Assembly: GCF_014204715.1 (NCBI RefSeq)
Contig: NZ_JACHLY010000001.1
Coordinates: 3,432,501-3,496,500, forward strand
Reading direction: 5' to 3'
DNA: 64,000 bases
From: Streptomonospora salina
Lineage (GTDB): Bacteria; Actinomycetota; Actinomycetes; Streptosporangiales; Streptosporangiaceae
Position numbers and translations under genes: made by a program. Numbering within the stretch: position 1 is the stretch's first letter; each line of letters opens with the position of its first letter. The notes under the pieces are model-generated. The model was not told the origin of the DNA. It worked only from the letters and a program-made list of their open reading frames with translations, and did no database searches. Shown here one piece after another: positions 43,289-60,849 of the stretch.

Positions 43289-43918
43289 ATGGTCTTCACG
43301 AAGTCGCTTCCCTGCCGCGGCGACGACGCCGTGGTGCTCTTCGCCGCCGCCCAGTTCGGACTTGTCAGCCGTGAGCAGGCCCGGCGGGCCGGGCTCTCCT
43401 TCGCGGATATCTCCGCGCGCCTGCGCCGGGGAGCGTGGGCGCGGACGCTGCATCGGGGTGTGTTCCGGGTGCTGGACTACGGCACGTTGGCCTCGCCTCT
43501 GAAGCAGGCCGTCGTCGCGGCGCAGTTGGCGCTGCCTACCGGCGCGTTCGCCTGCCGGGCCACCGCCGCGCGGCTGTGGCGGTTGGACGGGCTTGCGCCG
43601 TGGGACGGCCACACGGTCGATATGGCTGTTCCGGGCCGGCGGACGTCCGCACCGCCTCCGCCCTCCACACCTTCCCGGGCGGTGCCGCCCGCCGTCCGGA
43701 TCCATGCGCTGCGCGTGTGCGACAGCGACATCGCCGTCCGGGCGCCGATCCGCCTGACCGGGGTGGGGCGGACGCTGCGCGACATGGCGGCGTGCAGCCC
43801 GGCACGCACGCGCACGCGCCTGCGCGGTTCCGCGGTCGGGCGCGGGCTCGTCGTCTCCGGTAGGCCCGACGGGCGGTCGCGGTGTCGTGGGCGGCCGCCG
43901 CCGGTGTCATCCCCGTGA
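43289..43918 (+). pseudogene. truncated AbiEi-type antitoxin / DUF559-associated protein
   Basis: The first ~95 codons match the N-terminal winged-helix domain of type IV AbiEi antitoxin-like proteins (VVLFAAAQFGLVSREQARRA, RRGAWARTLHRGVFRV, HGVFR-type signature). The middle (PIRLTGVGRTLRDMAACSPA) resembles the start of the second domain. After that the reading becomes Arg/Pro-rich without homology, and the frame runs into the 3' end of the convergent kinase gene. The C-terminal half has evidently been lost by deletion or frameshift. Confidence 0.55.
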
Positions 43919-44974
43919 CCGCGCCCATGGCCACACCGCCGGGCGCTGCCGGGGTGGCGAAGGTAGTCGTGCCGTGACCTCGGTCCAGTGCGTGGCCAGC
44001 AGGTTGCGGACGGCCGGAGGCAGCGCGGCGGCGGTTGCGGGCGGTTCGCCGCCGTCCGCGGCGATCACGTCGCGGAGCAGCCGGGTGGAGTCCGGTCGCT
44101 GTGCGGGGTCCTTGGACAGCGCGGAGACCACCAGGGGTTCCAGCTCGGCGGGCAGCCCGTCGAGGTCGGGTTCCTCGCGCAGCACCCGGCGGGCGAGCTC
44201 TGCGGGGTGGCCGTGGCCGAACGGGTTGCGGGCTGCCGCCGCGAACGCCACGAGGCATCCCCACAGGAACACGTCGGAACGGTCGGTGGCGGGTTCGCCC
44301 CGGTACTGCTCGGGGCTGATCCACCCGGGTGTGCCTACACGGCCGCGCGGCCCGGACGCCCGGTGGTCGTCGTCGGGCAGGCCCTCCGGTTCCGGAAGCC
44401 CCATGCGCCGCAGCCCCGCGCGGAAGCGGCGCAGCCGTATCCACCGGGTGGGGTCCTCGCGCCTGGTGGGGCGGGCGATCCCGAAATCGAGGATCTTGGG
44501 TCCCGAGGGCGCGATGACCACATTGCTGGGTTCGAGGTCGCGGTGGACGACCTCCACCGAGTGCACGCCCCGGATCGCTTCCGCCGCCCCCGCGGCGAGC
44601 CCGGTCAGCATGCCGCCGCGCAGCGGGCCGTGCCGCTCGACGTGGTGGCGCACGGTCGGCCCGGGCACGTACTCCGTCGCCAGCCACGGAGGTTCGGCCT
44701 CCACGTCGGCCTGCACGAACCGGGCCACGCACGGGCTGTTCACCCGCGCCAGCAGCCGCGCCTCGTGGGCGAACTGCCGCCGGAAATCCGCGCTCGCGGC
44801 GTGCTCGCCGTTGATCACCTTGACCGCCAGGTACCCGCGTATGCCCGGGGCGGTCCCGGCGTAGACGGTTCCCATGCCGCCGGTGCCGACACGGCCCACC
44901 AGCTCGTAGCCGCCGACCTGTGCCGGGTCGTCGGGGAGCAGCCGACCCAGGCGGCGCGTCCCCCGGGCCTTCAT
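43907..44974 (-). CDS. Ser/Thr protein kinase with altered catalytic loop
   Basis: A 355-residue kinase domain without a transmembrane helix. The Gly loop VGTGGMGTVYAG (29-40) and ATP lysine K52 (LAVKV) are intact. The catalytic loop reads HRDLEPSN (144-151), with glutamate at position 148 replacing the near-invariant lysine, while the aspartate and asparagine remain. DFG is intact at 163-165. It may be weakly active or a pseudokinase. ATG 44974 follows GGGAGGCGCC; an in-frame TTG lies at 44986. The lack of a membrane anchor and extracellular domain separates it from the kinase at 3.7-5.0 kb. Confidence 0.8.
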   Translation of the reverse strand: MKARGTRRLGRLLPDDPAQVGGYELVGRVGTGGMGTVYAGTAPGIRGYLAVKVINGEHAASADFRRQFAHEARLLARVNSPCVARFVQADVEAEPPWLATEYVPGPTVRHHVERHGPLRGGMLTGLAAGAAEAIRGVHSVEVVHRDLEPSNVVIAPSGPKILDFGIARPTRREDPTRWIRLRRFRAGLRRMGLPEPEGLPDDDHRASGPRGRVGTPGWISPEQYRGEPATDRSDVFLWGCLVAFAAAARNPFGHGHPAELARRVLREEPDLDGLPAELEPLVVSALSKDPAQRPDSTRLLRDVIAADGGEPPATAAALPPAVRNLLATHWTEVTARLPSPPRQRPAVWPWARSRG

Positions 44975-45190
44975 GGCGCCTCCCAAGCGGTTCGCAGCGG
45001 TGGCCGCGCTCGTTCCGCCCGTCGTTCTCCGCTCCCACCCGCCTACCCGGCAGCGCTCGGAGGAGCGGGCCGAACCGGGGGAGCGGGGGATACGGGGCGG
45101 CGGCGTGCGCGCTTCAGGACCGCGAGTCTAGCGCCGCACACCCCGGTCCGGCTCTGCACCGGCGTTCGCGCCGTCGCCGGGCCCGGAGCG

Positions 45191-45586
45191 TCACCGGTCC
45201 CCGTGCAGGTCCGCCGCCGTATTCAGGCGCGCCAGGATGTCTTCGCTGAGCTTCTTGAAGTCCGATCTGCACGTCCCCACGTACTGCTGGGTGCTCCCGA
45301 TGGCCCCGTCAGCGGGTTTGAGGTCGAACATCGGCTTGTGGGCGTCGTGGGCCAGCGGCATGAGGCTCCGGTAGTTCCGGATCGTCGCGATCTCGTGCGG
45401 GGTGAGTACCTCTTCGCTCGCCATCCCCTGCACGACGTGCTGCTGGAATTCGACGGGGATCCGTTCGAGCCACCGCTGGTAGGCCTTCACCGGGCGGTCC
45501 AGGCGTACCCCGGGTTGCATGATTACGTAGCCGAGCGGTGTCATGTCCCCGCGGGGATGCTCGATGTTGGGCGGCATATTGTCCAT
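45191..45586 (-). pseudogene. C-terminal fragment, ParA/AAA-like protein
   Basis: The 131 codons end with YRSLMPLAHDAHKPMFDLKP, followed by ADGAIGSTQQYVG and a final FKKLSEDIL helix. I recognise this tail from actinomycete ParA-like AAA ATPases of plasmids and integrative elements, an identification from memory. No P-loop is present and the upstream half is missing. The fragment directly follows the AlbA-type remnant in another frame. The ATG at 45586 is probably not a native start; homology may extend a few codons upstream. Confidence 0.45.
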
Positions 45587-45623
45587 GACGGTGCCCCGCC
45601 AGGTCGCGCGCCAGTCGCGGACG

Positions 45624-46205
45624 TCCGAAGCGGTTGACGTAACCGAGGTTCTTCATGGCTCCCGCCAGCGAAGGGTTCCGGTAGTCGTTGACCCTGTCGT
45701 AGTTGTCCGCCCGGACCTGACCGTACGGGCCGCCGGGGTTGGAGACCTCGACCCTGTCGTCGAACCACTGGATTCGCACGGGAGCGTTCGACGACTCGTA
45801 GTTGCGGTGCATCAGGGCGTTCATACAGGCCTCGCGCAGGGCGGGAAACGGGAAGTCGGCGACTTCGCGCTCCCGGAAGCCGCCGTCGTCGGTAAGCTTC
45901 GTGTGGACCACCGGCTCTCCTCGATAGCCGCCGACAGCGACTGTCATGGACGGACGATCGAGGATCTTGCCGTCATCGCGGATATCGGTCAGTTGCCGGA
46001 GCGCGGCGTCCGTAGTATCGACGGATCCGTATGGGGTGCCGTCGTTCTGCACGCCGATGAGGAGGTCTCCTCCGTCGTTTCCGCCGAGGTCGTTGGCGAG
46101 TGCGCATATCGCCTTGCGGATCGCATAGCGGTCCTTCGCTTCGCGCTTGAACTCCAGGGTGCTGGACTTTCGTGTCCCCAGCGCTTCGGCGAGATCGTTC
46201 TCCAT
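45624..46205 (-). pseudogene. AlbA_2 (Schlafen-type) ATP-binding protein, 3'-truncated
   Basis: ATG 46205 opens a frame with the AlbA_2 pattern: SSTLEFKREAK, IRKAICALANDLGGNDGGDLLIGVQNDG and PALREACMNALMHRNYE. GHKL-like residues follow up to NLGYVNRFG at about 45624. In intact relatives this last motif leads into a ~200-residue C-terminal winged-helix part. Here the similarity ends abruptly although the frame stays open to 45309. The following DNA encodes a ParA-like tail in a different frame, so a deletion has joined two genes. Confidence 0.6.
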
Positions 46206-46263
46206 GGGGATCCATTCTCCGGGCCATGCATGTGTACCCGCCACCGTAGACACCTGTCGGCGC

Positions 46264-46304
46264 GCCCCGCGCCCCGCGCCGTGCGTCTGCGCGGGGCGCG
46301 GGGC
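46264..46304 (-). terminator. intrinsic terminator, perfect 16-bp stem
   Basis: GCCCCGCGCCCCGCGC (46264-46279) pairs perfectly with 46289-46304 around a 9-nt loop, just downstream of the two-gene reverse operon. A diverged second copy of this segment lies at about 48215-48260. Confidence 0.6.
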
Positions 46305-46314
46305 CGCGGGGCGG

Positions 46315-46518
46315 TTACCGGTCGGCGTCGTCGAGCAGGGCGCCGAGGCGGCGCCTGATCTCAAGTGCGGCTTCGCGGGCGCGGCCGAACCAGAAGACGT
46401 GGTCCTCGGTCGCTTCGACCATCTCGTCCAGCAGGTCGCGCAGCGCGATCCGTTCGGCGTCGGTCAGGGCGCTGTCGGCGGGCGGAGGCGGCTCCTGGGG
46501 CGGGTCGTCGGTGTTCAT
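46315..46518 (-). CDS. small acidic hypothetical protein
   Basis: A 67-residue protein. A Pro/Asp N-terminus precedes a helical C-terminal half (ERIALRDLLDEMVEATEDHVF, then ALEIRRRLGALLDDADR). There is no known family. Its ATG overlaps the stop of the upstream 110-residue gene (ATGA), giving a two-gene operon divergent from the first GntR gene. The last ~17 codons and the terminator are duplicated near 48.2-48.3 kb. Confidence 0.55.
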   Translation of the reverse strand: MNTDDPPQEPPPPADSALTDAERIALRDLLDEMVEATEDHVFWFGRAREAALEIRRRLGALLDDADR

Positions 46519-46847
46519 GCGACCACACCCGTCGCGGCGGGGCGGAGCGCCGGTTGCAGCCCGACGAATTGCAGCGTTCCGGCGAAGGCGCGCAGGTTGG
46601 TGAACCGGTGGTTGCGCCGGAGTGCGGCGAGTGCGTAGGGGCGCACGGACGGCGTGCGGGTGCGGCCTGCGTGAGGCGGCGCTACGGCGGTTGCGGAGGT
46701 GGCGGCCGGCGCGGGGGCGTAGGGGCGGATCCGTGCTGCTCGGCGGTTGCGTGGGCGGGCGGAGGGGGCAGGTACGGGCTCGGGTGTGCACGTGCGGGCG
46801 GGCGTGACGTTTCGGCCGTGCAACCCACGGCCGATAAGGTCGGTCAT
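46515..46847 (-). CDS. Arg/Ala/Pro-rich hypothetical protein
   Basis: A 110-residue, strongly basic and probably disordered protein with no recognised domain. Support comes from the AGGAGC ribosome binding site eight bases before ATG 46847 and the ATGA overlap with the following gene. It is divergent from GntR gene 1 and may be its target. A duplicate of its ribosome binding site and first codons is found at 47573-47600. Confidence 0.5.
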   Translation of the reverse strand: MTDLIGRGLHGRNVTPARTCTPEPVPAPSARPRNRRAARIRPYAPAPAATSATAVAPPHAGRTRTPSVRPYALAALRRNHRFTNLRAFAGTLQFVGLQPALRPAATGVVA

Positions 46848-47001
46848 GTCATCAGCTCCTAGATAGCTGGTGGCCGTGCCCCGGGCCGTTGCAGCGGCCG
46901 CGGGGTCTATTCGATCAATTCAGAGTAAGGGAACTCCTATACCCTCGTCTACCAACGTGGGTATTCGCTAGCCGACAGATGCCTTCTTCTACCTTCGTTG
47001 C
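46848..47001. promoter_or_regulatory. divergent promoter region with possible GntR operator
   Basis: This is the AT-richest part of the region. TATACCC at 46938-46944 and GGGTATT (about 46961-46967) form an inverted repeat like GntR operators. A TACCTT placed six bases before ATG 47002 would give a leaderless transcript. The left 70 bp are duplicated at 47573-47646. Confidence 0.45.
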
Positions 47002-47250
47002 ATGCCCGACGAGGAGATCGACTATGACTCGCCCCTACCGCCGTACCGGCAGATCGCGGCCGTCATCATCGGTGAGATCGAACGCGGGGAACTTCGTCCG
47101 AACCGGCCGATCCCTTCGGAGGCGACGATGATTCAGCGATGGGGCGTCGCGCGGGATACCGTCCGCCGCGCCGTGCGGTATCTCCGCGATGAGGGCTATG
47201 CCTACACGGTTGCCCAGCGCGGAACATTCGTGGCCGAGAACGGTCACTGA
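47002..47250 (+). CDS. single-domain GntR winged-helix regulator 1
   Basis: An 82-residue protein that is only a GntR DNA-binding domain: PPYRQIAAVIIGEIERGELRP, IPSEATMIQRWGVARDTVRRA and the wing YTVAQRGTFV. There is no ligand or oligomerisation domain. It likely acts as a dimer on the divergent promoter. Similar solo GntR proteins (KorSA-like) occur in actinomycete integrative elements. Confidence 0.8.
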   Translation: MPDEEIDYDSPLPPYRQIAAVIIGEIERGELRPNRPIPSEATMIQRWGVARDTVRRAVRYLRDEGYAYTVAQRGTFVAENGH

Positions 47251-47297
47251 AACCCGGAACCATGCCACCGTGTCCTTCGCTGGTGCAGTCTGTCCGC

Positions 47298-47561
47298 ATG
47301 GACTTGCCGACCGGGTACGGGCCCGATACCGAGATCGATCACGACGGCATGGACCCCGTGTGGCTGCAGCTGGCGGCGATCCTCGCCGCACGCATCGAAT
47401 CCGGTCGCTATGTGCCCGGGCGGCCCATCCCGTCGTTGAATCAGCTCCGCCAGGAGTTCGAGGTGGCCCGGGGAACCGCGGTCAAGGCCACGGACTACCT
47501 CGTGGAGGGCGGGCTCGTCCGGGCCGTGCACGGGAGAGGTGTGTACGTACTCCCGCGGTGA
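47298..47561 (+). CDS. single-domain GntR winged-helix regulator 2
   Basis: An 87-residue solo GntR DNA-binding domain: PVWLQLAAILAARIESGRYVP, IPSLNQLRQEFEVARGTAVKA and VHGRGVYVLPR. It lies 47 bp after regulator 1 without a good ribosome binding site. ATG 47298 is chosen because the GntR fold starts 18 residues later; GTG or other starts upstream are possible. Confidence 0.7.
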   Translation: MDLPTGYGPDTEIDHDGMDPVWLQLAAILAARIESGRYVPGRPIPSLNQLRQEFEVARGTAVKATDYLVEGGLVRAVHGRGVYVLPR

Positions 47562-47572
47562 CCGCGCAATAG

Positions 47573-47731
47573 GGTCGGTCATGTCATCAGCTCCTGTTTA
47601 GCTGGTGGCCACGCCCCCGGACCGTTGGCGCGGCCGCGGAGTCTCTCACTTTGCGAAGTCTATGTCATACGTATAGCTCTGCATAGCCTTCCAAGCGTTT
47701 TCGTGGGACACGGGGGCCATACATTGCTCCC
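47573..47731. repeat. duplicated promoter/start segment of the 110-residue gene
   Basis: Positions 47573-47646 repeat 46838-46912: the GGTCGGTCATGTCATCAGCT stretch, TAGCTGGTGGCC and GCGGCCGCGG-GTCT are shared. The copy keeps the reverse-strand ribosome binding site and ATG of the 110-residue gene but then runs into GntR gene 2. The right part (47647-47731) has ATACGTAT and CATACATT, likely operator and -10 elements of GntR gene 3. Confidence 0.65.
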
Positions 47732-48019
47732 GTGAGTGAGGACAGTGAGATCCCGGAGTTCGATCCGCAGGGCCCGGACCTCGTCTACGCCGCCCTCGCG
47801 GACCACGTCGTGGCACGCGTGGCGGCCGGCGATCTGGTGCCCGGTGCTCGTCTGCCGGCCGAGCGTGATCTGGCCGAGGAGTACGGCGTCGCCTACATGA
47901 CTGTGCGCCGGGCTATGCAGGTGCTACGCGAGCGCGGTGTGATCGTCACGGTCCACGGCAAGGGAACGTTCATCGCCCAGGACGCTGCTCAGAACGTCGC
48001 CGAGAACGACGGCGAGTAG
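47732..48019 (+). CDS. single-domain GntR winged-helix regulator 3
   Basis: A 95-residue solo GntR domain: VYAALADHVVARVAAGDLVPG, LPAERDLAEEYGVAYMTVRRAMQ and VHGKGTFIAQ, with a short acidic tail. The GTG start sits seven bases after a CATACATT element with no ribosome binding site, which suggests a leaderless transcript. It is the closest regulator upstream of the Wadjet operon, but two hairpins separate them. Confidence 0.8.
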   Translation: MSEDSEIPEFDPQGPDLVYAALADHVVARVAAGDLVPGARLPAERDLAEEYGVAYMTVRRAMQVLRERGVIVTVHGKGTFIAQDAAQNVAENDGE

Positions 48020-48050
48020 CACGTGGGAGGTACCCGCCGGGAACCGCCGG

Positions 48051-48068
48051 GGCCGGTGATCACCGGCC
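48051..48068. other. 18-bp perfect palindrome after GntR gene 3
   Basis: GGCCGGTGATCACCGGCC reads the same on both strands. It is 31 bp after the stop of regulator 3 and could be a terminator stem or a protein binding site. Confidence 0.5.
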
Positions 48069-48191
48069 GGGACACGCATCCACCGCGCGGATATCACCAA
48101 GTGTGAGCGATCACAGTGGCGAAAACCTCGCGGTCGATGACGTGGAACGTGGGTGACACTCCACCCCCTCCCCGGAGGTTCTTGGCCAGGG

Positions 48192-48275
48192 CCGACCGCC
48201 TCTACCGGCCCCGCGCCCCGCCCTGCGCCGTGCGTCTGCGCGGGGCGCGAGGCGGGGGCCGGTAGAGGCGGTCGG
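48192..48275. repeat. 84-bp inverted repeat including a duplicated terminator and gene end
   Basis: A 19-bp perfect arm (48192-48210) pairs with 48257-48275, enclosing a diverged copy of the terminator at 46264-46304. The following bases to about 48320 repeat the last 17 codons of the 67-residue gene (46315-46370). Confidence 0.65.
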
Positions 48276-48348
48276 TGTCGTCGAGCAGGGCGCCGAGGCG
48301 GCGCCGGATCTCAAGTGCGGCCGATAGCGGGCGCTACGCGCGCGGTCG

Positions 48349-48406
48349 TCGGGGGTGTCATAGGGGACACTCTCGGCGCCGAGAGTGTCCCCTATGACAC
48401 CCCCGA
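48349..48406. other. 58-bp perfect loopless palindrome upstream of Wadjet
   Basis: Positions 48349-48377 are the exact reverse complement of 48378-48406 (centre CTCGGC|GCCGAG). It lies about 130 bp before jetA, within otherwise non-coding DNA. It could insulate the operon as a terminator, be the scar or end of a mobile element, or be a binding site. Its perfect identity indicates recent origin or selection. Confidence 0.75.
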
Positions 48407-48537
48407 GGCGGCCGGATCGCCCACAGCAGCGGCGGTGTGGCCGCCCCCGGCGGCCCTTGTCCGCCCCACCCTCCCCGCTGCCCCGATTGCCGGATCCGTC
48501 GGACGCGGTGCCCGCCCATCGGGTACCAATGAGGGTG

Positions 48538-50157
48538 ATGTCTGCCGACCGCGCCCCCTCTGCGGCTCCGGAATCCGCATCGGGTTCCGCGTCTGTCGAT
48601 TACCAGCCCTTCGCCCACCTCACCGCGCCCAACGCGGAGCTGTACCGGGCGATCATGGGCGTGTTCGTCGCGGAGAAGGAACGCTTCACCGTCCACCTGC
48701 GGCCCGAGGACGTGCACCGGCTGCTGCCCGCGGACCCGGGCGTCGACGCCGACGACACCGTCAAGGCGCTCGACCGGCTCGCCGAGTGGGGCAACCTGCG
48801 CCCCGACCCCGACACCGGGCGGGTCACCGCCGTCGAGGACTTCTACCGGCGCCGCTACATCTACCAGCTCACCCGCGCGGGCGAAGCCGCTGAGGAGGCG
48901 CTCGCCGCCTACGACTCCGGGCTCGGCCGGCGCGGCTCCCTGCAGTCGGTGGCCCTGGCCGACATCGCGGCGCGCCTGCGCGAGCTCCTCGCCTGGGCCG
49001 ACCCTGCCTCCGACGCCGCCGAACCCGACCCCGCCCTGGTCCACCGCGCGCTGCGCGACCTGGCCGGACGGTTCGGCGAGCTCGCCGACAACGCCCGCGC
49101 GTTCATGGGTTCGCTCCAGCGCACCATCGATCTGCACGACGCCGAGGTCGAGGCGTTCCTCGCCTACAAGGACCGGCTGATCGACTACCTGGAACGGTTC
49201 ATCGCCGACCTCATCACCACCGGCTCCGAGATCGCCCGGCTGCTGTCCGACCTGGAGCGCACCGGCCCTTCCGGCGCGCGCGCCGTCGATCCGCTGCTGA
49301 CCGCGGCCGCCGACCGCGAAGCCGCCGACACCCTCCCGGGCGAGGAGCAGGGCGCCGACGACGCGGCGCGCGCGGCGGCGCTGGCCGAATGGCACCGCCG
49401 CTGGGACGGGCTGCGCGGCTGGTTCCTGTCCGCGCCCGACCACGAGCCGCAGGCCAAACTGCTGCGGTCGGCCGCCCGCAGCGCCATCCCGCAGCTGCTG
49501 GCGGTGGTCGCCGCGCTGAACGAGCGCCGCTCGGGCCGCTCCGACCGGTCGGCCGACTTCCGGGTGCTGGCGCGGTGGTTCGCCGAAGCGCCCGACGACG
49601 CCTCGCGCCACCGGCTGTGGCGCAGCGCGTTCGGGCTGCACCCGGCCCGCCACCTCACCGTCGACTCCGAAACCCTGCAAGCCCGCGAGGACGAACCCGA
49701 GACCGCCACGACGCCCTGGGACCGGGCCCGCCCCGTGCACATCAGCCCGCAGCTGCGCCGCACCGGCCAGTACGAGCGGCGGGGCCGCCCCCGCAAGGTC
49801 GCCGACCGCAGCGCCGAACGCCGCCGGCTCGCCGAGCACGCCCGCAAACAGGCCGAAGAGACCGCGGCCGCACGCGCGCGTCTGGACACCGGCGGTCGGA
49901 TCCGGCTGTCCGACGTCGCCGAGCTCGACCCCGCCGCCTTCGGCCTGTTCCTCGGGCTGCTCGGCGACGCCCTGGCGCACTGGGCCTACGACTCCCGGGA
50001 AACCTCCACCACCAGCAACGACGGCGGCCTGCGGATCCGGATGCGCGCGCTCGGCGACGGCGCCACCGCCGAGATCGCCACCCCCGACGGCGTTTTCCGC
50101 GGCCCCGACCACATCGTGGAGATCACCGACCTGGAAGGGCGGGCGGCCACACCGTGA
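48538..50157 (+). CDS. jetA: Wadjet type I JetA (DUF2397, TIGR02677-like; kleisin-type subunit)
   Basis: A 539-residue protein matching the DUF2397/TIGR02677 pattern. The N-terminus has YQPFAHLTAPNAELYRAIMGVF and VHRLL, with DFYRRRYIYQLTRAGEAAE in the winged-helix part. A long helical middle (SLQRTIDLHDAEVEAFLAYKD) and a C-terminal DPAAFGLFLGLLGDAL region follow. JetA is the MukF/kleisin-like subunit of the plasmid-restricting SMC complex. The start could be ATG 48529, GTG 48535 or ATG 48538. The stop overlaps jetB (GTGA). Confidence 0.9.
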   Translation: MSADRAPSAAPESASGSASVDYQPFAHLTAPNAELYRAIMGVFVAEKERFTVHLRPEDVHRLLPADPGVDADDTVKALDRLAEWGNLRPDPDTGRVTAVEDFYRRRYIYQLTRAGEAAEEALAAYDSGLGRRGSLQSVALADIAARLRELLAWADPASDAAEPDPALVHRALRDLAGRFGELADNARAFMGSLQRTIDLHDAEVEAFLAYKDRLIDYLERFIADLITTGSEIARLLSDLERTGPSGARAVDPLLTAAADREAADTLPGEEQGADDAARAAALAEWHRRWDGLRGWFLSAPDHEPQAKLLRSAARSAIPQLLAVVAALNERRSGRSDRSADFRVLARWFAEAPDDASRHRLWRSAFGLHPARHLTVDSETLQAREDEPETATTPWDRARPVHISPQLRRTGQYERRGRPRKVADRSAERRRLAEHARKQAEETAAARARLDTGGRIRLSDVAELDPAAFGLFLGLLGDALAHWAYDSRETSTTSNDGGLRIRMRALGDGATAEIATPDGVFRGPDHIVEITDLEGRAATP

Positions 50158-51407
50158 CCACAGGCACCCGTACCGAGGACCAGACCCGCGCGGAGGTCCG
50201 CCGGGCCGCGCGGGCGCTGCTGCGCGAACCCCTGCTGCGCGGGGGCGGCCGCACCGCCGACGACTTCCGGCTGGTCCGCCAGCACGCCCGGGAGCTGCGC
50301 GAATGGTTCGACCGCAACACCGGCTGGGGGCTGCACGTCGACAGCGAGACCGCCCGGCTGCGCAAGACCCCGGGGGCCCCGGACGACGCCACCCACCCCG
50401 CGCGCGAGACCGGCGGCGCCCGGCTGCCGTTCACCCGCCGCCGCTACGTCCTGCTGTGCCTGGCCCTGGCGGTGCTGGAGCGCTCGGAGAACCAGATCGC
50501 GCTGGGGCGGCTGGCCGAACAGGTGGTGCTGGAGGCGGCCGACCCCGCCCTGGCCGAAGCCGGGATCTCCTTCACCCTTGAGGAGCGCAGCGAACGGGGG
50601 GATCTGGTCGCGGTGGTGCGGCTGCTCACCCGGCTGGGCGTCATCGCGCTGGTGGCGGGCGACGACGAGGACTACCTGCGCTCCACCGGCGACGCGCTCT
50701 ACGACGTGCGCCGCCGCGTCCTGGCCGGGCTGCTCGCCGGCGGGGTGGGCCCGTCGACGGTGGCGGCCGGGACCGACGGCGACCGCCTCGCGGCCCTGAC
50801 CGCCGACCCCGTCCTGGAGTCGATGGACAGCGCCGATCTGCGCAACCGGCGGTTGCGCCACACCCTCACCCGCCGACTGATCGACGACCCGGTGCTGTAC
50901 TACGGCACCCTCACCGAGGAGGAGTCGGCGTACCTCGCCAGCCAGCGCACCGCCATCACCAGCCGGATCACGGAGCTGACCGGGCTGGTCGCCGAGGCGC
51001 GCGCCGAAGGCATCGCCATGGTCGATCCCGACGACGACCTCACCGACGTGCGCATGCCGGAGAAGGGCACGCACGGCCACGTCACCCTGCTGCTGGCCGA
51101 GTACCTCGCCTCCGGCCCGCCGCGCCCGGTGCCGCGCGCCGAACTGGAGGAACAGGTGCGCGGGTTCGCCCGCCAGTACGGCGGCCACTGGTCCAAAACC
51201 GCCAAGGAGCCCGGTGCCGAGGCCGAGCTGGTGCACCGGGCCGTGGAGAAGCTGGAGGCGCTCGCGCTGGTGCGCACGGCGACGGAGGCCGACGGCACCC
51301 GGTCGGTGCGCGCCCTGCCGGCGCTGGCGCGCTTCGCCGTCGGCGCGGCCGTCGTGCGCGGCGGCTCGGCCACCGACCCCACCGACGAACAGGAGCCCAG
51401 GCGATGA
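50154..51407 (+). CDS. jetB: Wadjet type I JetB (DUF2398, TIGR02678-like; KITE-type subunit)
   Basis: A 417-residue protein of the DUF2398/TIGR02678 family. The N-terminus has ARALLREPLLRG and LREWFDRNTGW, and FTRRRYVLLCLALAVLERSE is highly typical. VLYYGTLTEEESAYL and MPEKGTHGHVTLLLAEYL occur later. It is the MukE-like winged-helix partner that bridges kleisin and SMC. GTG 50154 overlaps the jetA stop and its own stop overlaps the jetC ATG, so the subunits are translated in step. Confidence 0.9.
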   Translation: MTTGTRTEDQTRAEVRRAARALLREPLLRGGGRTADDFRLVRQHARELREWFDRNTGWGLHVDSETARLRKTPGAPDDATHPARETGGARLPFTRRRYVLLCLALAVLERSENQIALGRLAEQVVLEAADPALAEAGISFTLEERSERGDLVAVVRLLTRLGVIALVAGDDEDYLRSTGDALYDVRRRVLAGLLAGGVGPSTVAAGTDGDRLAALTADPVLESMDSADLRNRRLRHTLTRRLIDDPVLYYGTLTEEESAYLASQRTAITSRITELTGLVAEARAEGIAMVDPDDDLTDVRMPEKGTHGHVTLLLAEYLASGPPRPVPRAELEEQVRGFARQYGGHWSKTAKEPGAEAELVHRAVEKLEALALVRTATEADGTRSVRALPALARFAVGAAVVRGGSATDPTDEQEPRR

Positions 51408-54400
51408 CCGATCCGCTGCCCGTTGCCGCCGACGACCCGCCGGCGGCCCCGCCCGCTGCCCGCGCGGACTCCGGCGGCGCGTACGCGGAGCCGGACACCG
51501 CGGGCTCTCCGCCGTTGCCGCACCCCGCGCAGGGCCGCTGGCAGCCGCTGCGGCTGGGGCTGGTCGACCTGTTCTACTACGAGGACGAGGAGTTCCGCTT
51601 CCGCGACGGCCGGCTGCTGCTGCGCGGCAACAACGGCACCGGCAAGTCCAAAGTCCTCGCGCTGTCCCTGCCGTTCCTGCTGGACGGCAACCTGTCCGCG
51701 AGCCGCGTCGAGCCCGACGGCGACCCCAAGAAGCGCATGGACTGGAACCTGCTGCTGGGCGGTGAGCACGACAACCCCGAACGGCTCGGCTACACCTGGA
51801 TCGAGTTCGGCCGCGTCGACGCGGCCGGCACCGCGCACTTCCGGACCCTGGGCTGCGGCCTCAAGGCGGTGACCGGCCGCGGGATCGCCCGGCACTGGTT
51901 CTTCACCACCTCCCAGCGCATCGGCGACGACACCGGCGACGGGCTGCGGCTGCTCGACAACACCCGCACCGCGCTCACCCGCGACCGGCTGGCCGAAGCG
52001 GTCGGCGGGCACGGCCGGGTCTACGACAACGCCCGCGACTACCGCCGCGCCGTCGACGAGGAACTGTTCGGGCTCGGCGAGGAGCGCTACCGCGCACTGG
52101 TCGACCTGCTCATCCAGCTGCGCCAGCCCCAACTGTCCAAGCGGCCCGACGAGGCCGCGCTCTCGCGGGCCCTCACCCAGGCGCTGCCGCCGCTGGACGA
52201 GGCGGTGGTCGCCGACGCCGCCGAGGCGTTCCGCAGCCTCGATGAGGACCGGGCCGAGCTGGACGCGATGAAGGAGGCCCACGGCGCCGCCGAGCGGTTC
52301 CTCGGCCACTACCGCTCCTACGCCCGCGTGGCCGCGCTGCGCCGGTCGCGGCCACCGCGCGACCGCAACGCCGAGTACGAGCGGCTGCGCGAGCGGCTGC
52401 GCGAAGCCGAGGCGCAGCGGGACGCGGCCCAAGCGCGGGTCTCCGAAGCCGAGGAGTCCCGGCGCAGCCAGCGCGAGCGGGCGGCCCGCCTGGAAGCCGA
52501 GGAGAAGGCGCTGCGGGCCGGACCCGAGATGCGCAGCGCCCACGAGCTGGAGCGCGCCGCCGAGGAGGCCCGCAGCGCCGAGGAGCGGTTCCGCGGCCAC
52601 AGCGGCGACGCCGAGCGGGCCTCCGGCGACCACGCACGCGCCCGCACGCGGCTGGCCGACGCCGCCGAACGCGGCCGCGCCGCCGCCGACCGGGTGGAGG
52701 CGGCGCTGGCGCGTGCTGCCGACGGCGCCGCCGACGCCGGCATCGGCGACGTCCACCGCAGCGAGGTCGCCGCCCCGCTGGACCGGGCCGATCCCGCGGA
52801 CTCGGGCGGCGAAGCGCCGCAGCGCACCGCCGGCGCCGGCGACGACACCGCCCGCGCGGCGGCCGACGCCCTCACCGGCCGCAGGGACCGGAGCCTGGAC
52901 CACGTCGAGCGGCTGTCGGCGGCCGCGGCGGAAGCCGAGACCGCCCGGGCGGCGGCGGAGAGCCGGCTGTCCGAAGCCGAGGACGAGCTGGCCGCCTGCG
53001 AGCAGCGCCGCTCCGAGGCCGAAACCGCGGTCGGTTCCGCCGCGGCCGCCCTGGTCGAGGCGGTGCGCGTGCACCTGTCGGGCTGTTCGCAGCTGCGTCC
53101 CGACGATCCGGAAGGGCTCCTCGACCGGCTCCAGGCGTGGGCCGGCGACCTGGAGGGGGCCAATCCCGCCCGGGCCGAGAGCGACGAGGCGGCGCGCCGC
53201 GCCGGGGAGGACCTGGCCGACGCGGCGGCCAGGCTCAAGCAGGAGCGCGCGACCCGCACCGGGCGCCGCGGCGAGCTGCAGGAGGAACTGGACCGGCTGC
53301 GCGAAGGCGGCCAGTCCGCACCGCCGGTGCCCTACACCCGTGCCGACGGCGCCCGCGCGCAGCGGCCCGGCGCCCCGCTGTGGCGGCTCGTCGACTTCCG
53401 CGACACGGTCCCCGACGGCGACCGCGCCGGTCTGGAAGCCGCGCTGGAGGCGGCCGGCCTGCTCGACGCCTGGGTCGCGCCCGACGGCGACGTGTCCTCG
53501 GCCCAAACCCACGACGTCGTGCTGCGCCCCGCCGACCCCGTGGACGGGCCGTCGCTGGCCGACGCCCTCGTCCCCGCCGTGGACACCGGCGACCCGCAGG
53601 CGTGTGCCGTCGCACCCGCCGTCGTCGCCCGGCTGCTGGGCGGCGTCGCTCTGCACACACCCGCCCCCGGAACGGGCGCCACCCCCGACGCCGGCGGCCC
53701 CGCTCCGGCCGGCGCCGCGGGCGTGGACACCCACGGGCGCTTCCGGCTGGGTGTGCTGCGCGGGCGCTGGAGCAAGGAGCGCGCCGAATACCTCGGCGAG
53801 GGCGCCCGCGAAGCCGCCCGCCGCGCCCGCATCGACGAACTCGGCGCCGAAATCGCCGAGCTGGACGCCGCTGTCGCCGAGCTCGACTCCCGCGCCGCCG
53901 AACTCGATCGGCGCCGTACCGCCCTCCAGGCCGAACTGGCCGCCCTTCCGGGCGACGACACGCTGGTGGCCGCCCACGCCGCCCACACCGAAGCGGCCAA
54001 CGCCTGCCGGCGCGCCCGCGACGTGCGCGACGAGCGGGACACGGCCGCGAGCGCCGCAGCCGAGCGGGCGGCCGCCGCCTCCAGCGAGCTGCACGCGGCA
54101 GCGGCCGACCTGGGGCTTCCCACCGACACGGGGGAACTGCGCAGCCTGCGGCGGGCGCTGGACGCCTACCGGGTGGCGCTGGCCGACGTGTGGCCGGCCC
54201 TGCGCGAACGCAGGGGTGCGGCCGAGGACGAACGCGTGCGCGGCGAGGAGACCGAGCGCCTGCGCGCCTACGCCGAGGAGATGGCCGAACGCTCCGCCCG
54301 CGCCGAGGACGAGTGGGCCGCCGCGCACGAACGCCACACCACCCTGAAGGACACGGTCGGGGCCGCCGTGGAGGAGCTGCAGCGCCGCCTCGCCGAGAAC

Positions 54401-55732
54401 GGCCAGGCCCAGCGCGACTGCGAACAGCTGCGCGAGGCCGCCGAGCAGGAGCTGATCGAAGCGTCCAAGCTGCTCGGCAGTGAGCAGACCCGCATCGACG
54501 ACCTGCAGTCCGGAATCGAGACCGCCGCCCAGGCCCGCGCCGACGCCGTCGCCGCGCTGCGGCGCTTCTCCGCCACCGGCCTGCTCGGCGTCGCCCTGCC
54601 CGACGCCGAAACGCCCCCGCCCGGCGAGGAGTGGGCCGTGCGCCCGGCCGTGGACCTGGCGCGCACGATCGGGGCGCGTCTGGCCGAGGCCGACGACTCC
54701 GACGCGGCGTGGGAGCGGGTGCAGAAACGCCTCTCGGCGGAGCTGGCGCCCCTGGGCGAAACGCTGTCGGCGCGCGGGCACCAGGCCAGCACCCAGTCCC
54801 TGGAGGAGGGGGTCGTGGTGCGGGTGGTGTTCAACGGCCGCGAGCGCGAGGTGCCCGAACTCGTCGGCGCCCTGGACGCCGAGGTCGAGGAGCGCGAGCG
54901 CCTGCTCACCGCGCGCCAGCGCGAACTGCTGGAGAACCACCTGATCACCGAGGTCGCCGGGTCGCTGCAGGAGCTGATCGTGGCCGCCGAACGGCGGGTG
55001 ACCCAGATGAACGAGGAGCTGGAGGAGCGCCCCACCAGCACCGGTATGCGGCTGCGGCTGGTGTGGCGGCCGTCGCGGCGGGACGCGCCGCCGGGGCTGG
55101 AGGACGCGCGGCGCCGCCTGCGCCAGGACAGCGACGCCTGGTCCCCCGAGGACCGGTCGGTGCTGGGCGGTTTCCTGCAGGGCCAGATCGACCGGGTGCG
55201 CGCCGCCGACCAGAGCGGCGGGACCTGGTACGAGCACCTCAAGCAGGCGCTGGATTACCGGACCTGGCACGAGTTCGGGGTGGAGCGCCACCAGAACGGC
55301 CGGTGGCAGCCGGCCACCGGGCCCGCTTCGGGCGGCGAGCGGGTGCTGTCCATGTCGATCCCGCTGTTCGCCGCCGCGTCGGGGCATTACGCCAGCGCCG
55401 GCGATCCGCACGTTCCGCGGCTGATCACGCTGGACGAGGCCTTCGCCGGGGTCGACGACGACTCGCGGGCCAAGTGCCTGGGGCTGCTGGCCTCCTTCGA
55501 TCTCGACGTCGTCATGACCAGCGAGCGCGAGTGGGGGTGCTACCCGCAGGTGCCCGGTCTGGCGATCTGCCAGCTGTCGAGGATCGAAGGGGTTCCGGCG
55601 GTACTGGTGACACGCTGGGAGTGGGACGGCTACCGCCGGATCCGCGTGCCCGACGAGCCGGAGGACGCCCCGGCTCCTGCGGCCGCACCCGCCGACGCCG
55701 GTATCGGCGGCCAGGACGCGCTCTGGCCGTGA
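51404..55732 (+). CDS. jetC: Wadjet type I JetC (TIGR02680-like SMC/MukB ATPase)
   Basis: A 1,442-residue SMC-like motor that extrudes DNA loops. Walker A is GNNGTGKS (75-82), the ABC signature SGGER (1309-1313) and Walker B LITLDEAFAGVDD (1340-1352). Between the two head halves lie long Ala/Glu/Arg coiled coils with a hinge-like region near residues 640-810 (PLWRLVDFRDTV, GLEAALEAAGLLDAWV). This layout and length fit the family. The N-terminal ~45 residues are a Pro/Ala-rich extension. ATG 51404 overlaps the jetB stop. Confidence 0.93.
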   Translation: MTDPLPVAADDPPAAPPAARADSGGAYAEPDTAGSPPLPHPAQGRWQPLRLGLVDLFYYEDEEFRFRDGRLLLRGNNGTGKSKVLALSLPFLLDGNLSASRVEPDGDPKKRMDWNLLLGGEHDNPERLGYTWIEFGRVDAAGTAHFRTLGCGLKAVTGRGIARHWFFTTSQRIGDDTGDGLRLLDNTRTALTRDRLAEAVGGHGRVYDNARDYRRAVDEELFGLGEERYRALVDLLIQLRQPQLSKRPDEAALSRALTQALPPLDEAVVADAAEAFRSLDEDRAELDAMKEAHGAAERFLGHYRSYARVAALRRSRPPRDRNAEYERLRERLREAEAQRDAAQARVSEAEESRRSQRERAARLEAEEKALRAGPEMRSAHELERAAEEARSAEERFRGHSGDAERASGDHARARTRLADAAERGRAAADRVEAALARAADGAADAGIGDVHRSEVAAPLDRADPADSGGEAPQRTAGAGDDTARAAADALTGRRDRSLDHVERLSAAAAEAETARAAAESRLSEAEDELAACEQRRSEAETAVGSAAAALVEAVRVHLSGCSQLRPDDPEGLLDRLQAWAGDLEGANPARAESDEAARRAGEDLADAAARLKQERATRTGRRGELQEELDRLREGGQSAPPVPYTRADGARAQRPGAPLWRLVDFRDTVPDGDRAGLEAALEAAGLLDAWVAPDGDVSSAQTHDVVLRPADPVDGPSLADALVPAVDTGDPQACAVAPAVVARLLGGVALHTPAPGTGATPDAGGPAPAGAAGVDTHGRFRLGVLRGRWSKERAEYLGEGAREAARRARIDELGAEIAELDAAVAELDSRAAELDRRRTALQAELAALPGDDTLVAAHAAHTEAANACRRARDVRDERDTAASAAAERAAAASSELHAAAADLGLPTDTGELRSLRRALDAYRVALADVWPALRERRGAAEDERVRGEETERLRAYAEEMAERSARAEDEWAAAHERHTTLKDTVGAAVEELQRRLAENGQAQRDCEQLREAAEQELIEASKLLGSEQTRIDDLQSGIETAAQARADAVAALRRFSATGLLGVALPDAETPPPGEEWAVRPAVDLARTIGARLAEADDSDAAWERVQKRLSAELAPLGETLSARGHQASTQSLEEGVVVRVVFNGREREVPELVGALDAEVEERERLLTARQRELLENHLITEVAGSLQELIVAAERRVTQMNEELEERPTSTGMRLRLVWRPSRRDAPPGLEDARRRLRQDSDAWSPEDRSVLGGFLQGQIDRVRAADQSGGTWYEHLKQALDYRTWHEFGVERHQNGRWQPATGPASGGERVLSMSIPLFAAASGHYASAGDPHVPRLITLDEAFAGVDDDSRAKCLGLLASFDLDVVMTSEREWGCYPQVPGLAICQLSRIEGVPAVLVTRWEWDGYRRIRVPDEPEDAPAPAAAPADAGIGGQDALWP

Positions 55733-55754
55733 CCGCGGCGGCGCCGGACGGTAC

Positions 55755-57122
55755 GTGGACGACGACGGGAAGAGGAGTGGCGTGCGGGGCCGGGACGAGA
55801 CCGATGCGGCGCCGGACGCCGGCGGGCGGGAGCGGCCCGGCGGGGTCGACCGCCTCCGCCTGGACCGGCTGCTGGGCGGCGACGACACGGAATGGCTCGT
55901 GGAACGGGTGCGCACCCGCATCGCGCGCGGCCGCGACCTCACGGCAACGGTGACGCTGTCCCGTGCCACCGACGGGCAGCGCATGGCGGTGCAGCGGCTG
56001 CTGGGCCGGCGCCCCGCAGCCGGGCGGTCGCTGACGGTTCCGCTGGACGCGGTCGACGACGTGCTGCGCCGGTCGGGGGTGAGCCCGCACGGCCTGCGGG
56101 CGGCGGTCGAGGAGCTGCGCGGCCCGGTCCCGGTGCACGCGGACACGGCGGCGGTCGAGGCCCGGGCGTGGGACCGGGCGTTCGCCCCGCTGGAGCGGGC
56201 GTGCGCGCCGCGCGGGGAACTCGCCGCCTGGTGCGAACGCGTGCGCGGTTCGGGGCTGGTGCGCCGGCTGCTGGGCGGGCCCGACGCCGCCGCCCCGGAG
56301 CTGGCGACACTGTCCGCGGTGGTGGAGCACCTGCCGGCGGCGGGCGAGGGCGTGCCCGTGTTCGCCGCCCGGGTCTGCGGCGACGCCCATGCGCTCGACC
56401 ACGGGCGGCCGTTGGGGACGCTGGCGCTGGGTGCCGCCCGGGCGCTGTCGGGGCTGGATCCCGCCGACGGGGGAACCGGCGGCACGGGGGCGGAGGCCCG
56501 GCGGGAACTGTGGGCGGCGGTGGGGCTGCTGCAGGACGACCTGTCGGCGACGGCCCTGGCCGCCGGGCTGGGCGGCGACTCGGCCACCGCCACCGGACGC
56601 GCCCTGGCGGAGCTGCGGGCGGCGGGCCAGCCGGCGGTGCTGACGCTGCGCCAGCTGGTGCGGGATCCGCCGCGGCGGCCCGGCGGCGCGGCGCCCGTCC
56701 ACGTCTGCGAGAACCCGGCTGTGGTCGCCGCGGCGGCCGACCGGTTGGGGCCGTCCTGCCCGCCGCTGGTGTGCACGCGCGGCCAGCCCAACGCGGCCGT
56801 GCTCACACTGCTGCGGCTGCTGGCCGGGGGCGGCGCGGTGCCGCGCTACCACGGCGACTTCGACTGGGGCGGTGTGCGTATCGCCAACGCCCTGCTGCGG
56901 CGCCTGGCGTGGCGCCCGTGGCGCTACACCGCCGCCGACTACCGGGCCGCCGCGGATGCGGGCGGCGGTGCGCAGCTGGGCGGGACCCCGGTGGACGCGG
57001 ACTGGGACGAGGACCTGGCGCCGGCGATGGCCGAATCGGGGCGGCGGGTGGAGGAAGAGGCGGTGCTGCCCGGGCTGCTGGCCGACTTGGAGGAGGCCGC
57101 CGACCCGCCGAGGTCCCGGTGA
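55755..57122 (+). CDS. jetD: Wadjet type I JetD (DUF2399/TIGR02679-like Toprim nuclease)
   Basis: A 455-residue nuclease subunit that cleaves small circular DNA once the SMC complex has looped it. An N-terminal DUF3323-like region is followed by a C-terminal Toprim-type domain with VCENPAVV (E319) and YHGDFDWGGVRIAN (D368, D370), the expected metal ligands. All catalytic residues appear intact. GTG 55755 is used; GTG 55782 is also plausible because AGAGGAG sits shortly before it. The 53-bp repeat starts immediately after its stop. Confidence 0.88.
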   Translation: MDDDGKRSGVRGRDETDAAPDAGGRERPGGVDRLRLDRLLGGDDTEWLVERVRTRIARGRDLTATVTLSRATDGQRMAVQRLLGRRPAAGRSLTVPLDAVDDVLRRSGVSPHGLRAAVEELRGPVPVHADTAAVEARAWDRAFAPLERACAPRGELAAWCERVRGSGLVRRLLGGPDAAAPELATLSAVVEHLPAAGEGVPVFAARVCGDAHALDHGRPLGTLALGAARALSGLDPADGGTGGTGAEARRELWAAVGLLQDDLSATALAAGLGGDSATATGRALAELRAAGQPAVLTLRQLVRDPPRRPGGAAPVHVCENPAVVAAAADRLGPSCPPLVCTRGQPNAAVLTLLRLLAGGGAVPRYHGDFDWGGVRIANALLRRLAWRPWRYTAADYRAAADAGGGAQLGGTPVDADWDEDLAPAMAESGRRVEEEAVLPGLLADLEEAADPPRSR

Positions 57123-57175
57123 TCGTGCAGCTACAGCGAGTGAAAACGTTTTCCAGTGGCAGTGGCTACAGGATC
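57123..57175. repeat. 53-bp imperfect palindromic repeat, copy B
   Basis: It begins at the base after the jetD stop and matches the element at 23645-23697 at 43 of 53 positions. The core is GTGAAAACGTTTTCC, containing the perfect palindrome GAAAACGTTTTC, with flanking CAGCTAC and GGCTAC arms. It lies about 50 bp before the recD2-like gene, so it could affect jetD termination or recD2 expression. Confidence 0.75.
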
Positions 57176-57225
57176 GACGGTGCCATCATGGGTGTCGGCG
57201 CTGGTGCGGAAATTGGGGAGTACTG

Positions 57226-60392: not shown

Positions 60393-60806
60393 GTGCCACA
60401 CACCCAGATCGTCGTCGGTGCCGCGATCGTCCGCGGCGGCGCCGTGCTCGCCGCGCAGCGGGCCCACCCCCAGGCGATGCGCGGGCGCTGGGAACTGCCC
60501 GGCGGAAAAGTCGACCCCGGCGAATCCGACACCGACGCCCTCGTGCGCGAGTGCGACGAAGAGTTGGGCGTGCGGATCGCGCCGGTGCACCGGATCGGCG
60601 GCGACGTCGCCTTTCCCGAACGCGGCGACGGCTCGACCGCCGTGCTGCGGGTGTGGCTGGCCGAGCTGCCCGCGGACGAGTCCGAGCCCCGTGCACTGGA
60701 GCACCTCGCGCTGCGCTGGCTGGACGCCGAATCGCTCGGCGGCGTCGACTGGCTGCCCGCCGACCTCCCGTTCCTCACCGAGATCCGGCCGCGGCTGCTC
60801 GGCTGA
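60393..60806 (+). CDS. Nudix (MutT-type) (deoxy)nucleotide pyrophosphohydrolase
   Basis: A 137-residue protein. The Nudix box GX5EX7REUXEEXGU is complete: G38-KVDPG-E-SDTDALV-RE-C-D-EE-L-GV. It is preceded by GRWELPGG. The length and LRWLDAESLGGVDWLPAD ending fit the small MutT group that removes oxidised or non-canonical (d)NTPs. The true substrate is not visible. GTG 60393 begins right before the first beta strand (QIVVGAAIVRGG). Confidence 0.9.
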   Translation: MPHTQIVVGAAIVRGGAVLAAQRAHPQAMRGRWELPGGKVDPGESDTDALVRECDEELGVRIAPVHRIGGDVAFPERGDGSTAVLRVWLAELPADESEPRALEHLALRWLDAESLGGVDWLPADLPFLTEIRPRLLG

Positions 60807-60821
60807 GGCCGCCGCGGCACC

Positions 60822-60849
60822 CCGTCGGCCGGGACGTCCCGGCCGACGG
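60822..60849 (+). terminator. 28-bp perfect palindrome, terminator of the Nudix gene
   Basis: CCGTCGGCCGGGAC (60822-60835) is the exact reverse complement of 60836-60849. It is 15 bp after the stop and upstream of typA. Confidence 0.65.

Follow-up and report, generated by a model that had tools for sequence, protein, structure and literature searches.

A perfect 58-bp palindrome next to a Wadjet operon of Streptomonospora salina is one copy of a dispersed palindrome family

Introduction

Long stable hairpins with few U residues are described at transcript ends in Streptomyces (PMC12207403), and highly structured, U-lacking transcript ends of S. clavuligerus have been likened to I-shaped terminators (PMC8269248). 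Bidirectional transcript ends are over-represented at XRE-DUF397 units in this species (PMC8269248). Termination without a U-tract is poorly understood in GC-rich actinomycetes. The Wadjet complex JetABCD is presented in a review as cleaving circular DNA independently of sequence, with hairpin sensing assigned there to Lamassu (PMC10586767). Here we analyse a perfect palindrome situated directly upstream of a Wadjet operon in a 64,000-nucleotide stretch of the Streptomonospora salina genome (the window), for which an earlier note had considered an insulating role, an element boundary and a site targeted or sensed by the SMC complex.

Results

The palindrome occupies positions 48349-48406 (no strand assigned) and, as first described, is made of two arms of 29 bp that match exactly without a spacer. 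At the base composition of the window, loopless palindromes with 29-bp arms are expected by chance 4e-11 times per window and 3.5e-9 times per 5.6-Mb genome, and the longest arm in 30 windows simulated under a Markov-1 model was 13 bp. Folded as RNA it reaches -63.7 kcal/mol on the plus strand and -60.2 kcal/mol on the minus strand (z about -10.5; 0 of 200 shuffles as good), and it has the GC-rich hairpin stability expected of an I-shaped terminator. The U-tract of a canonical terminator is absent, with flanks of GGCGGCCGG on one strand and CGACCGCGC on the other, and no T-run follows the palindrome on either strand. The statement that it is longer and more perfect than the other terminators of the window holds for perfect loopless palindromes, the next longest of which (60822-60849) has 14-bp arms, but not for hairpins in general, as an imperfect, looped structure at 48189-48276 is longer and folds more strongly (-86.6 kcal/mol). 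The 60822-60849 palindrome lies 16 bp 3' of the stop codon of the gene at 60393-60806 and resembles an ordinary terminator. An Rfam scan of the window and of two further loci (L209 and L153) matched no family, and plasmid records gave no match to 48020-48530.

Palindromes become seriously unstable in Escherichia coli from about 150 bp or more. Because 58 bp is below this length and another perfect palindrome, 62 bp long, occurs in the S. salina genome (C1:4514610), the perfection of the window copy calls for no site-specific explanation. An assembly artefact is unlikely, since the site lies inside a 5.07-Mb contig and has diverged relatives in separately assembled genomes.

The exact 58-bp sequence occurs once in the S. 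salina genome (DNA search, both strands), and a single-arm scan with up to three mismatches returned 2 + 4 sites, a small excess over the 2 + 2 of a reversed control, and two of these six sites belong to the palindrome. Diverged relatives are found readily: a 76% relative, itself palindromic, lies at about C1:3847874, and in a DNA search of five congeners (G001 to G005) related palindromes were matched 48 times in one genome, that of Streptomonospora sp. PA3 (G005). We built a covariance model, R1, from 25 palindromes of S. salina (G000), G002, G005 and a further relative, G076, aligned over 70 columns; these 25 training copies match R1 by construction. The window copy scores 82.8 bits with this model, and the S. 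salina genome contains seven R1 places at E < 2e-4, including the 62-bp palindrome. At E <= 0.01, counted on both strands among 150 scored candidates per genome, R1 matches number 17 in S. salina, 28 in G001, at least 128 in G002 (a lower bound), 1 in G003, 2 in G004 and 68 in G005; expressed as palindromes, there are about 34 in G005, at least about 64 in G002, about 14 in G001 and essentially none in G003 and G004. Under stricter filters, a match at E <= 1e-4 was obtained in 11 of 200 genomes of the host family, spread over 6 of 68 genera. The palindrome at 48349-48406 is one copy of a dispersed palindrome family that occurs in Streptomonospora and in a small number of related genera. The search for further copies proposed earlier thus had a divided outcome, the exact sequence being single-copy and the family having several diverged copies, as predicted for a mobile repeat. 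A degenerate pattern of the palindrome found 15 stretches among genome contigs, all from Streptomonospora sp. PA3 in a collection where records of or near the S. salina genome may be missing, and none in viral contigs. The family is undescribed in the literature that we found on Wadjet palindromes, Streptomyces and mycobacterial termination, and Streptomonospora or actinobacterial palindromic repeats.

Aligned, the 25 palindromes display invariant words and co-varying arms: the core TCGGCGCCGA is flanked by conserved arm words of the GAGGGTGTC type, in loopless palindromes of about 58-66 bp. Changes in one arm are compensated in the other; 90% of alignment cells are paired and 20 of 29 pairs have changed on both sides, versus 10.2 in shuffles (0 of 500 as high), among copies that were chosen as palindromes and whose arms would likewise be matched by template-switch repair of imperfect palindromes. 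Conserved words within an otherwise free stem, the palindromic architecture and the adjacency of small GntR regulators in the window would also fit a double-stranded operator or nucleoid-protein site, on which a dimer would sit on the arm words and the hairpin would be incidental. Such a site, however, has no need of co-variation at its variable stem positions, the copies avoid divergent promoters (see below), and exact matches to the arm word GAGGGTGTC number just three in the window (both strands), none of them inside 48349-48406; we therefore consider a protein-binding site unlikely. As separate observations, several congeners have a concentration of palindromes around murG (G001:C68:203500-222900, L212; G005:C21:198000-206500, L214; and in S. 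salina itself G000:C1:1239500-1256500, L213), G001 having four strong R1 matches in a stretch of about 20 kb, and an 11-base word, ATAGCGGGCGC, recurs by eye at a like offset in the window and in several G076 copies, which may be chance.

The position of the copies relative to genes was assessed with a home-made codon-usage gene caller trained on the window. From 87 distinct copies in five genomes 77 were placed, the other 10 having reached the edge of the DNA taken around them, and G005 was represented by 24 loci, its 2-kb loci being left out as too short to reach genes. The placed copies are biased towards convergent gene ends and avoid divergent promoters, with 25 in convergent, 43 in tandem and 9 in divergent gaps compared to 10.9, 50.1 and 16.0 expected by gap length (p = 1.4e-5); by gap counts p is 6e-5, and 1e-4 after dropping further alike G076 copies, although the baseline gaps come from palindrome-chosen loci plus the window and copies from the same island subfamily cannot be treated as independent. 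In S. salina six of the seven copies could be placed, none of them in a divergent gap. Four lie 12-40 bp from the nearest preceding stop codon and one 76 bp, and the least typical is the window copy at 326-329 bp, where a gene remnant and a hairpin intervene between the stop codon of the preceding regulator gene (GntR3) and the palindrome. The copy at C1:3847870 sits behind a gene that by eye reads as DUF397-like.

Two of these slots could be compared with congeners. Orthologues of the gene preceding C1:4514610 have no family palindrome at the matching place in the five congeners; sequence-unrelated hairpins closely follow the orthologous stop codon in G002 (-61 kcal/mol), G004 (-64 kcal/mol) and G003 (-67 kcal/mol), that of G001 is weaker (-51 kcal/mol), and G005 reaches -39 kcal/mol, no better than shuffles. 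Another G003 alignment, judged spurious (-38 kcal/mol), was left out of this comparison. Behind murG (identified by reading) a palindrome is present in both S. salina and G005. The 87-bp unit of G001 that matches the S. salina murG palindrome is found at another place on the contig, separate from the two flanking genes.

In G002, G005 and G076 the palindrome often lies midway in non-coding islands, with gaps between called genes of 184-2825 bp. Flanking direct repeats, at spacings near 72-73 bp or multiples, accompany 20 of 29 copies in G005, 23 of 40 in G002 (there mostly 136-143 bp) and 9 of 14 in G076; the flanks show inverted similarity to each other at 4 of 29, 15 of 40 and 13 of 14 copies, and GC skew on the left exceeds that on the right at 26 of 29, 33 of 40 and 14 of 14 copies, respectively. 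Neither flanking repeats nor inverted flanks were found at the seven S. salina copies or at four G001 copies. The foldback architecture, with inverted arrays of short tandem repeats around a centre, is absent at the S. salina copies (0 of 7 with flanking repeats). Among the 14 G076 copies a terminal motif is present at both ends of four islands (L067, L202, L203 and L206) and at one end of two (L066 and L210); these terminal repeats were not found around the given S. salina, G001, G002 and G005 copies, nor in the window. The G005 and G076 repeat units resemble each other by eye. Plasmid and phage records gave no match to the G005 island. One orthologous gap, a single case, is 0.15 kb long in S. 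salina, where its palindrome is decayed (37.6 bits), and 1.3 kb long in G002, where an island surrounds a near-perfect palindrome.

Several islands deserve separate mention. L134:1850-3820 of strain PA3 and L066, L067, L202 and L203 of G076 consist of inverted minisatellite arrays, with a repeat unit of about 72 bp, around the palindrome, with a flip in GC skew at the centre. Small inverted pairs of the terminus motif, about 55 bp, lie inside L211 (+84 to +140 from the palindrome centre) and L210 (+87 to +141), and might represent another small palindromic element lying within the first one. At L134:7122-7632 strain PA3 also has a match (96 bits) to Rfam RF02735 (Sernc350, a Saccharopolyspora antisense sRNA), unrelated to the palindrome.

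These data bear on whether the family is a selfish, non-autonomous mobile repeat of the MITE or foldback kind, with no part in transcription and with gene ends as the places where insertion does least harm. The multiple copies expected of MITEs are present, and their number varies strongly among congeners, from essentially none to at least about 64. In G076 the same palindrome stands between different genes at four places within about 530-640 bp of 91-96% identity, inverted terminal repeats bound both sides of 4 of the 14 islands and one side of 2, and the 87-bp unit of G001 stands apart from the genes that flank its S. salina counterpart. Yet no target-site duplication is obvious by eye at the S. 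salina copies or at the four G076 islands, the S. salina copies are bare of terminal repeats, the arms stay matched as they diverge, and the slot of one copy is filled by unrelated hairpins in relatives. We regard a repeat with no transcriptional role as a possible explanation, and a less probable one than termination (see Discussion).

The nearest gene upstream of the window copy is GntR3 (47732-48019, plus strand), the last of three tandem genes for small GntR-family regulators; GntR1 (47002-47250) and GntR2 (47262-47561, scanned as 47298-47558) are also on the plus strand and were identified by Pfam. The cluster has a repeated leader (near 46845 and 47572). Before them, on the minus strand, lies a small gene with no Pfam match (about 46315/46318 to 46518) with a strong hairpin behind its stop codon (core 46264-46304). 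The hairpin at 48189-48276 (found by RNA folding, no strand assigned), between GntR3 and jetA and 72 bp left of the palindrome, repeats in its right part the 3' end and hairpin of this small gene (86% over 126 bp, against 46261-46382). By repeat alignment and direct reading, 48272-48334 (minus strand) is the 3'-end remnant of a copy of the gene, with homology ending about 15 bp left of the palindrome. In the duplicated 3' end with its hairpin (48192-48334), the outer stem is longer than in the original.

On the right the locus is bordered by recD2 (57229-59484, plus strand; Pfam), which is conserved in all six congeners, S. salina included. Upstream of it, G003 and G004 have a protein kinase gene as the immediate neighbour; G001 has the kinase, a gene like 46318-46518 and then GntR2; in G005, GntR1 and GntR3 are separated from recD2 by a short gap, and a palindrome is absent; G002 has GntR2, a gene like 46318-46518, GntR1 and a family palindrome (64 bits), without jet genes; and S. 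salina has the small gene, GntR1, GntR2, GntR3, the remnant with its hairpin, the palindrome and jetABCD. The kinase, whose product starts MKARG or VKARG, immediately precedes recD2 in G003 and G004, and in G001 it occupies the far end of the interval; in the window a Ser/Thr protein kinase gene is located at 43907-44974 on the minus strand (Pfam). Since gene content upstream of recD2 differs among the six congeners, the interval from kinase to recD2 (43907-57229 in the window) forms a variable cassette spot of the genus, ranging from a few hundred bp in G003 and G004 to more than 12 kb with Wadjet in S. salina. No connection of this palindrome with RmuC or RecD2, both named earlier for the processing of such structures, was seen; recD2 borders a variable locus on the right as a conserved gene.

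The idea of an element boundary survives in a weak sense only, in that the palindrome lies within the interval where jet is unique to S. salina among the six congeners. A stronger version would make the palindrome a mark of, or former attachment or recombination site for, the entry of the Wadjet operon, given that jet lies between GntR and recD2 in S. salina and is absent there in the five other congeners, and that the palindrome stands on the jet side of the interval beside a truncated gene copy. Against this, the right border near 57123-57229 has no matching palindrome, no integrase was found among the Pfam-scanned genes of the window, G002 has a palindrome at the same spot without jet (the flanks of the two do not align), and the six other S. 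salina palindromes (E < 2e-4) are far from the single jetA match. We think a role in operon entry very improbable.

The operon itself comprises jetA (48529-50157; DUF2397, JetA2), which starts 122 bp past the palindrome, jetB (50154-51407; DUF2398, JetB2), jetC (51404-55732; JetC2, a MukB-like SMC protein) and jetD (55755-57122; DUF3323/DUF2399, JetD2), all on the plus strand, and is of type II by the best PADLOC models. Relatives of jetA occur in 129 of 200 genomes of the host family; S. salina has a single jetA match and those of its congeners are distant (about 30% identity). We scanned 30 jetA loci among the matches listed, S. salina included, each with about 1.5 kb of upstream DNA, and R1 found no family palindrome upstream of the 29 others (best other match E = 0.095). 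The proposed tie to jetA is contradicted by this absence from all 29. Its position 122 bp upstream of jetA is what commends the palindrome as a site that the Wadjet SMC complex might target or sense, a reading refuted as a general rule by the 29 loci and at odds with the presence of family copies in congeners whose sole jetA relatives are about 30% identical. It also disagrees with the sequence-independent action of JetABCD and the assignment of hairpin sensing to Lamassu (PMC10586767), and we give it next to no credence. The palindrome at 48349-48406 is a neighbour of the Wadjet defence system and not a part of it.

Discussion

We favour the interpretation that the palindromes are bidirectional hairpin terminators without a U-tract which spread as a repeat, the window copy probably insulating the GntR cluster from jetA. 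RNA transcribed from either strand would fold into one long uninterrupted hairpin of about -60 kcal/mol, which may stop or block RNA polymerase in the manner of I-shaped terminators, with Rho or processing possibly completing termination. Copies would spread as a repeat, enter or survive in slots behind genes and do the work of an ordinary terminator there. At the locus studied here, the palindrome and the hairpin at 48189-48276 would together cut jetA off from transcripts of the upstream GntR cluster, leaving 122 bp before jetA for a promoter of its own. This reading as a bidirectional terminator or polymerase block is based on the positions behind genes, the hairpin on either strand and the U-poor, stable-stem transcript ends of Streptomyces (PMC12207403, PMC8269248). 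Insulation of jetA, one of the suggestions of the earlier note, is in keeping with the positions of the family copies and is a prediction from them.

Some observations pull the other way. Most strong copies in G002, G005 and G076 lie in long non-coding islands and not close behind a gene, as functionless repeats also would, and the positional bias could equally be explained by promoter avoidance on the part of any insertion. Mycobacterial polymerase is reported to need a U-tract in vitro, which speaks against a simple intrinsic mechanism.

As a tentative possibility, the bare palindrome of the window might be the seed or stripped core of an undescribed foldback-like element, which would form symmetrical non-coding islands of about 0.5-2.5 kb with inverted arrays of a repeat unit of about 72 bp around a perfect loopless palindrome, some with inverted terminal repeats, growing and moving around the 3' ends of genes both in Streptomonospora and in a related genus. 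The symmetrical islands of relatives, with their large inverted symmetry, resemble bacterial counterparts of foldback elements. More broadly, the analysis uncouples a conspicuous palindrome from the defence system that it only adjoins, and a clade-limited repeat family may provide ready-made bidirectional terminators in GC-rich actinomycetes.

Compared with known systems, the palindromes probably make up a new family within a known class, that of dispersed hairpin repeats; they likely act as terminators, and in relatives they take on the unusual form of islands. With the I-shaped terminators of GC-rich actinobacteria they share a stable GC-rich stem, the absence of a U-tract and a bias to gene 3' ends (PMC8269248), but they differ in being a multi-copy family with conserved words, no loop and perfect arms of up to 31-33 bp, and termination is here a prediction. 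Like REP/BIME and other bacterial stem-loop repeats they are dispersed, extragenic, palindromic and clade-restricted, although longer, loopless and perfect, and the tetranucleotide head that REP elements have was not seen. REP elements are also said to be targets of insertion sequences. REP elements proper are short, imperfect, looped hairpins in genomes with a RAYT (Y1) transposase; the loopless, perfect stem at 48349-48406 does not match the hairpin part of this description. DNA-uptake-sequence dyads, which act as terminators in Neisseria and Haemophilus, likewise place an inverted pair of a conserved word in a terminator-like hairpin, whereas the single word GAGGGTGTC is rare in the window. 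The architecture of foldback (FB) transposons is known from Drosophila, and the inverted tandem arrays, the central palindrome and the inverted terminal repeats on both sides of some G076 islands recall FB elements and MITEs; unlike these, the copies have no target duplication discernible by eye, those of S. salina are bare, and the G076 termini do not recur in the G002 and G005 islands.
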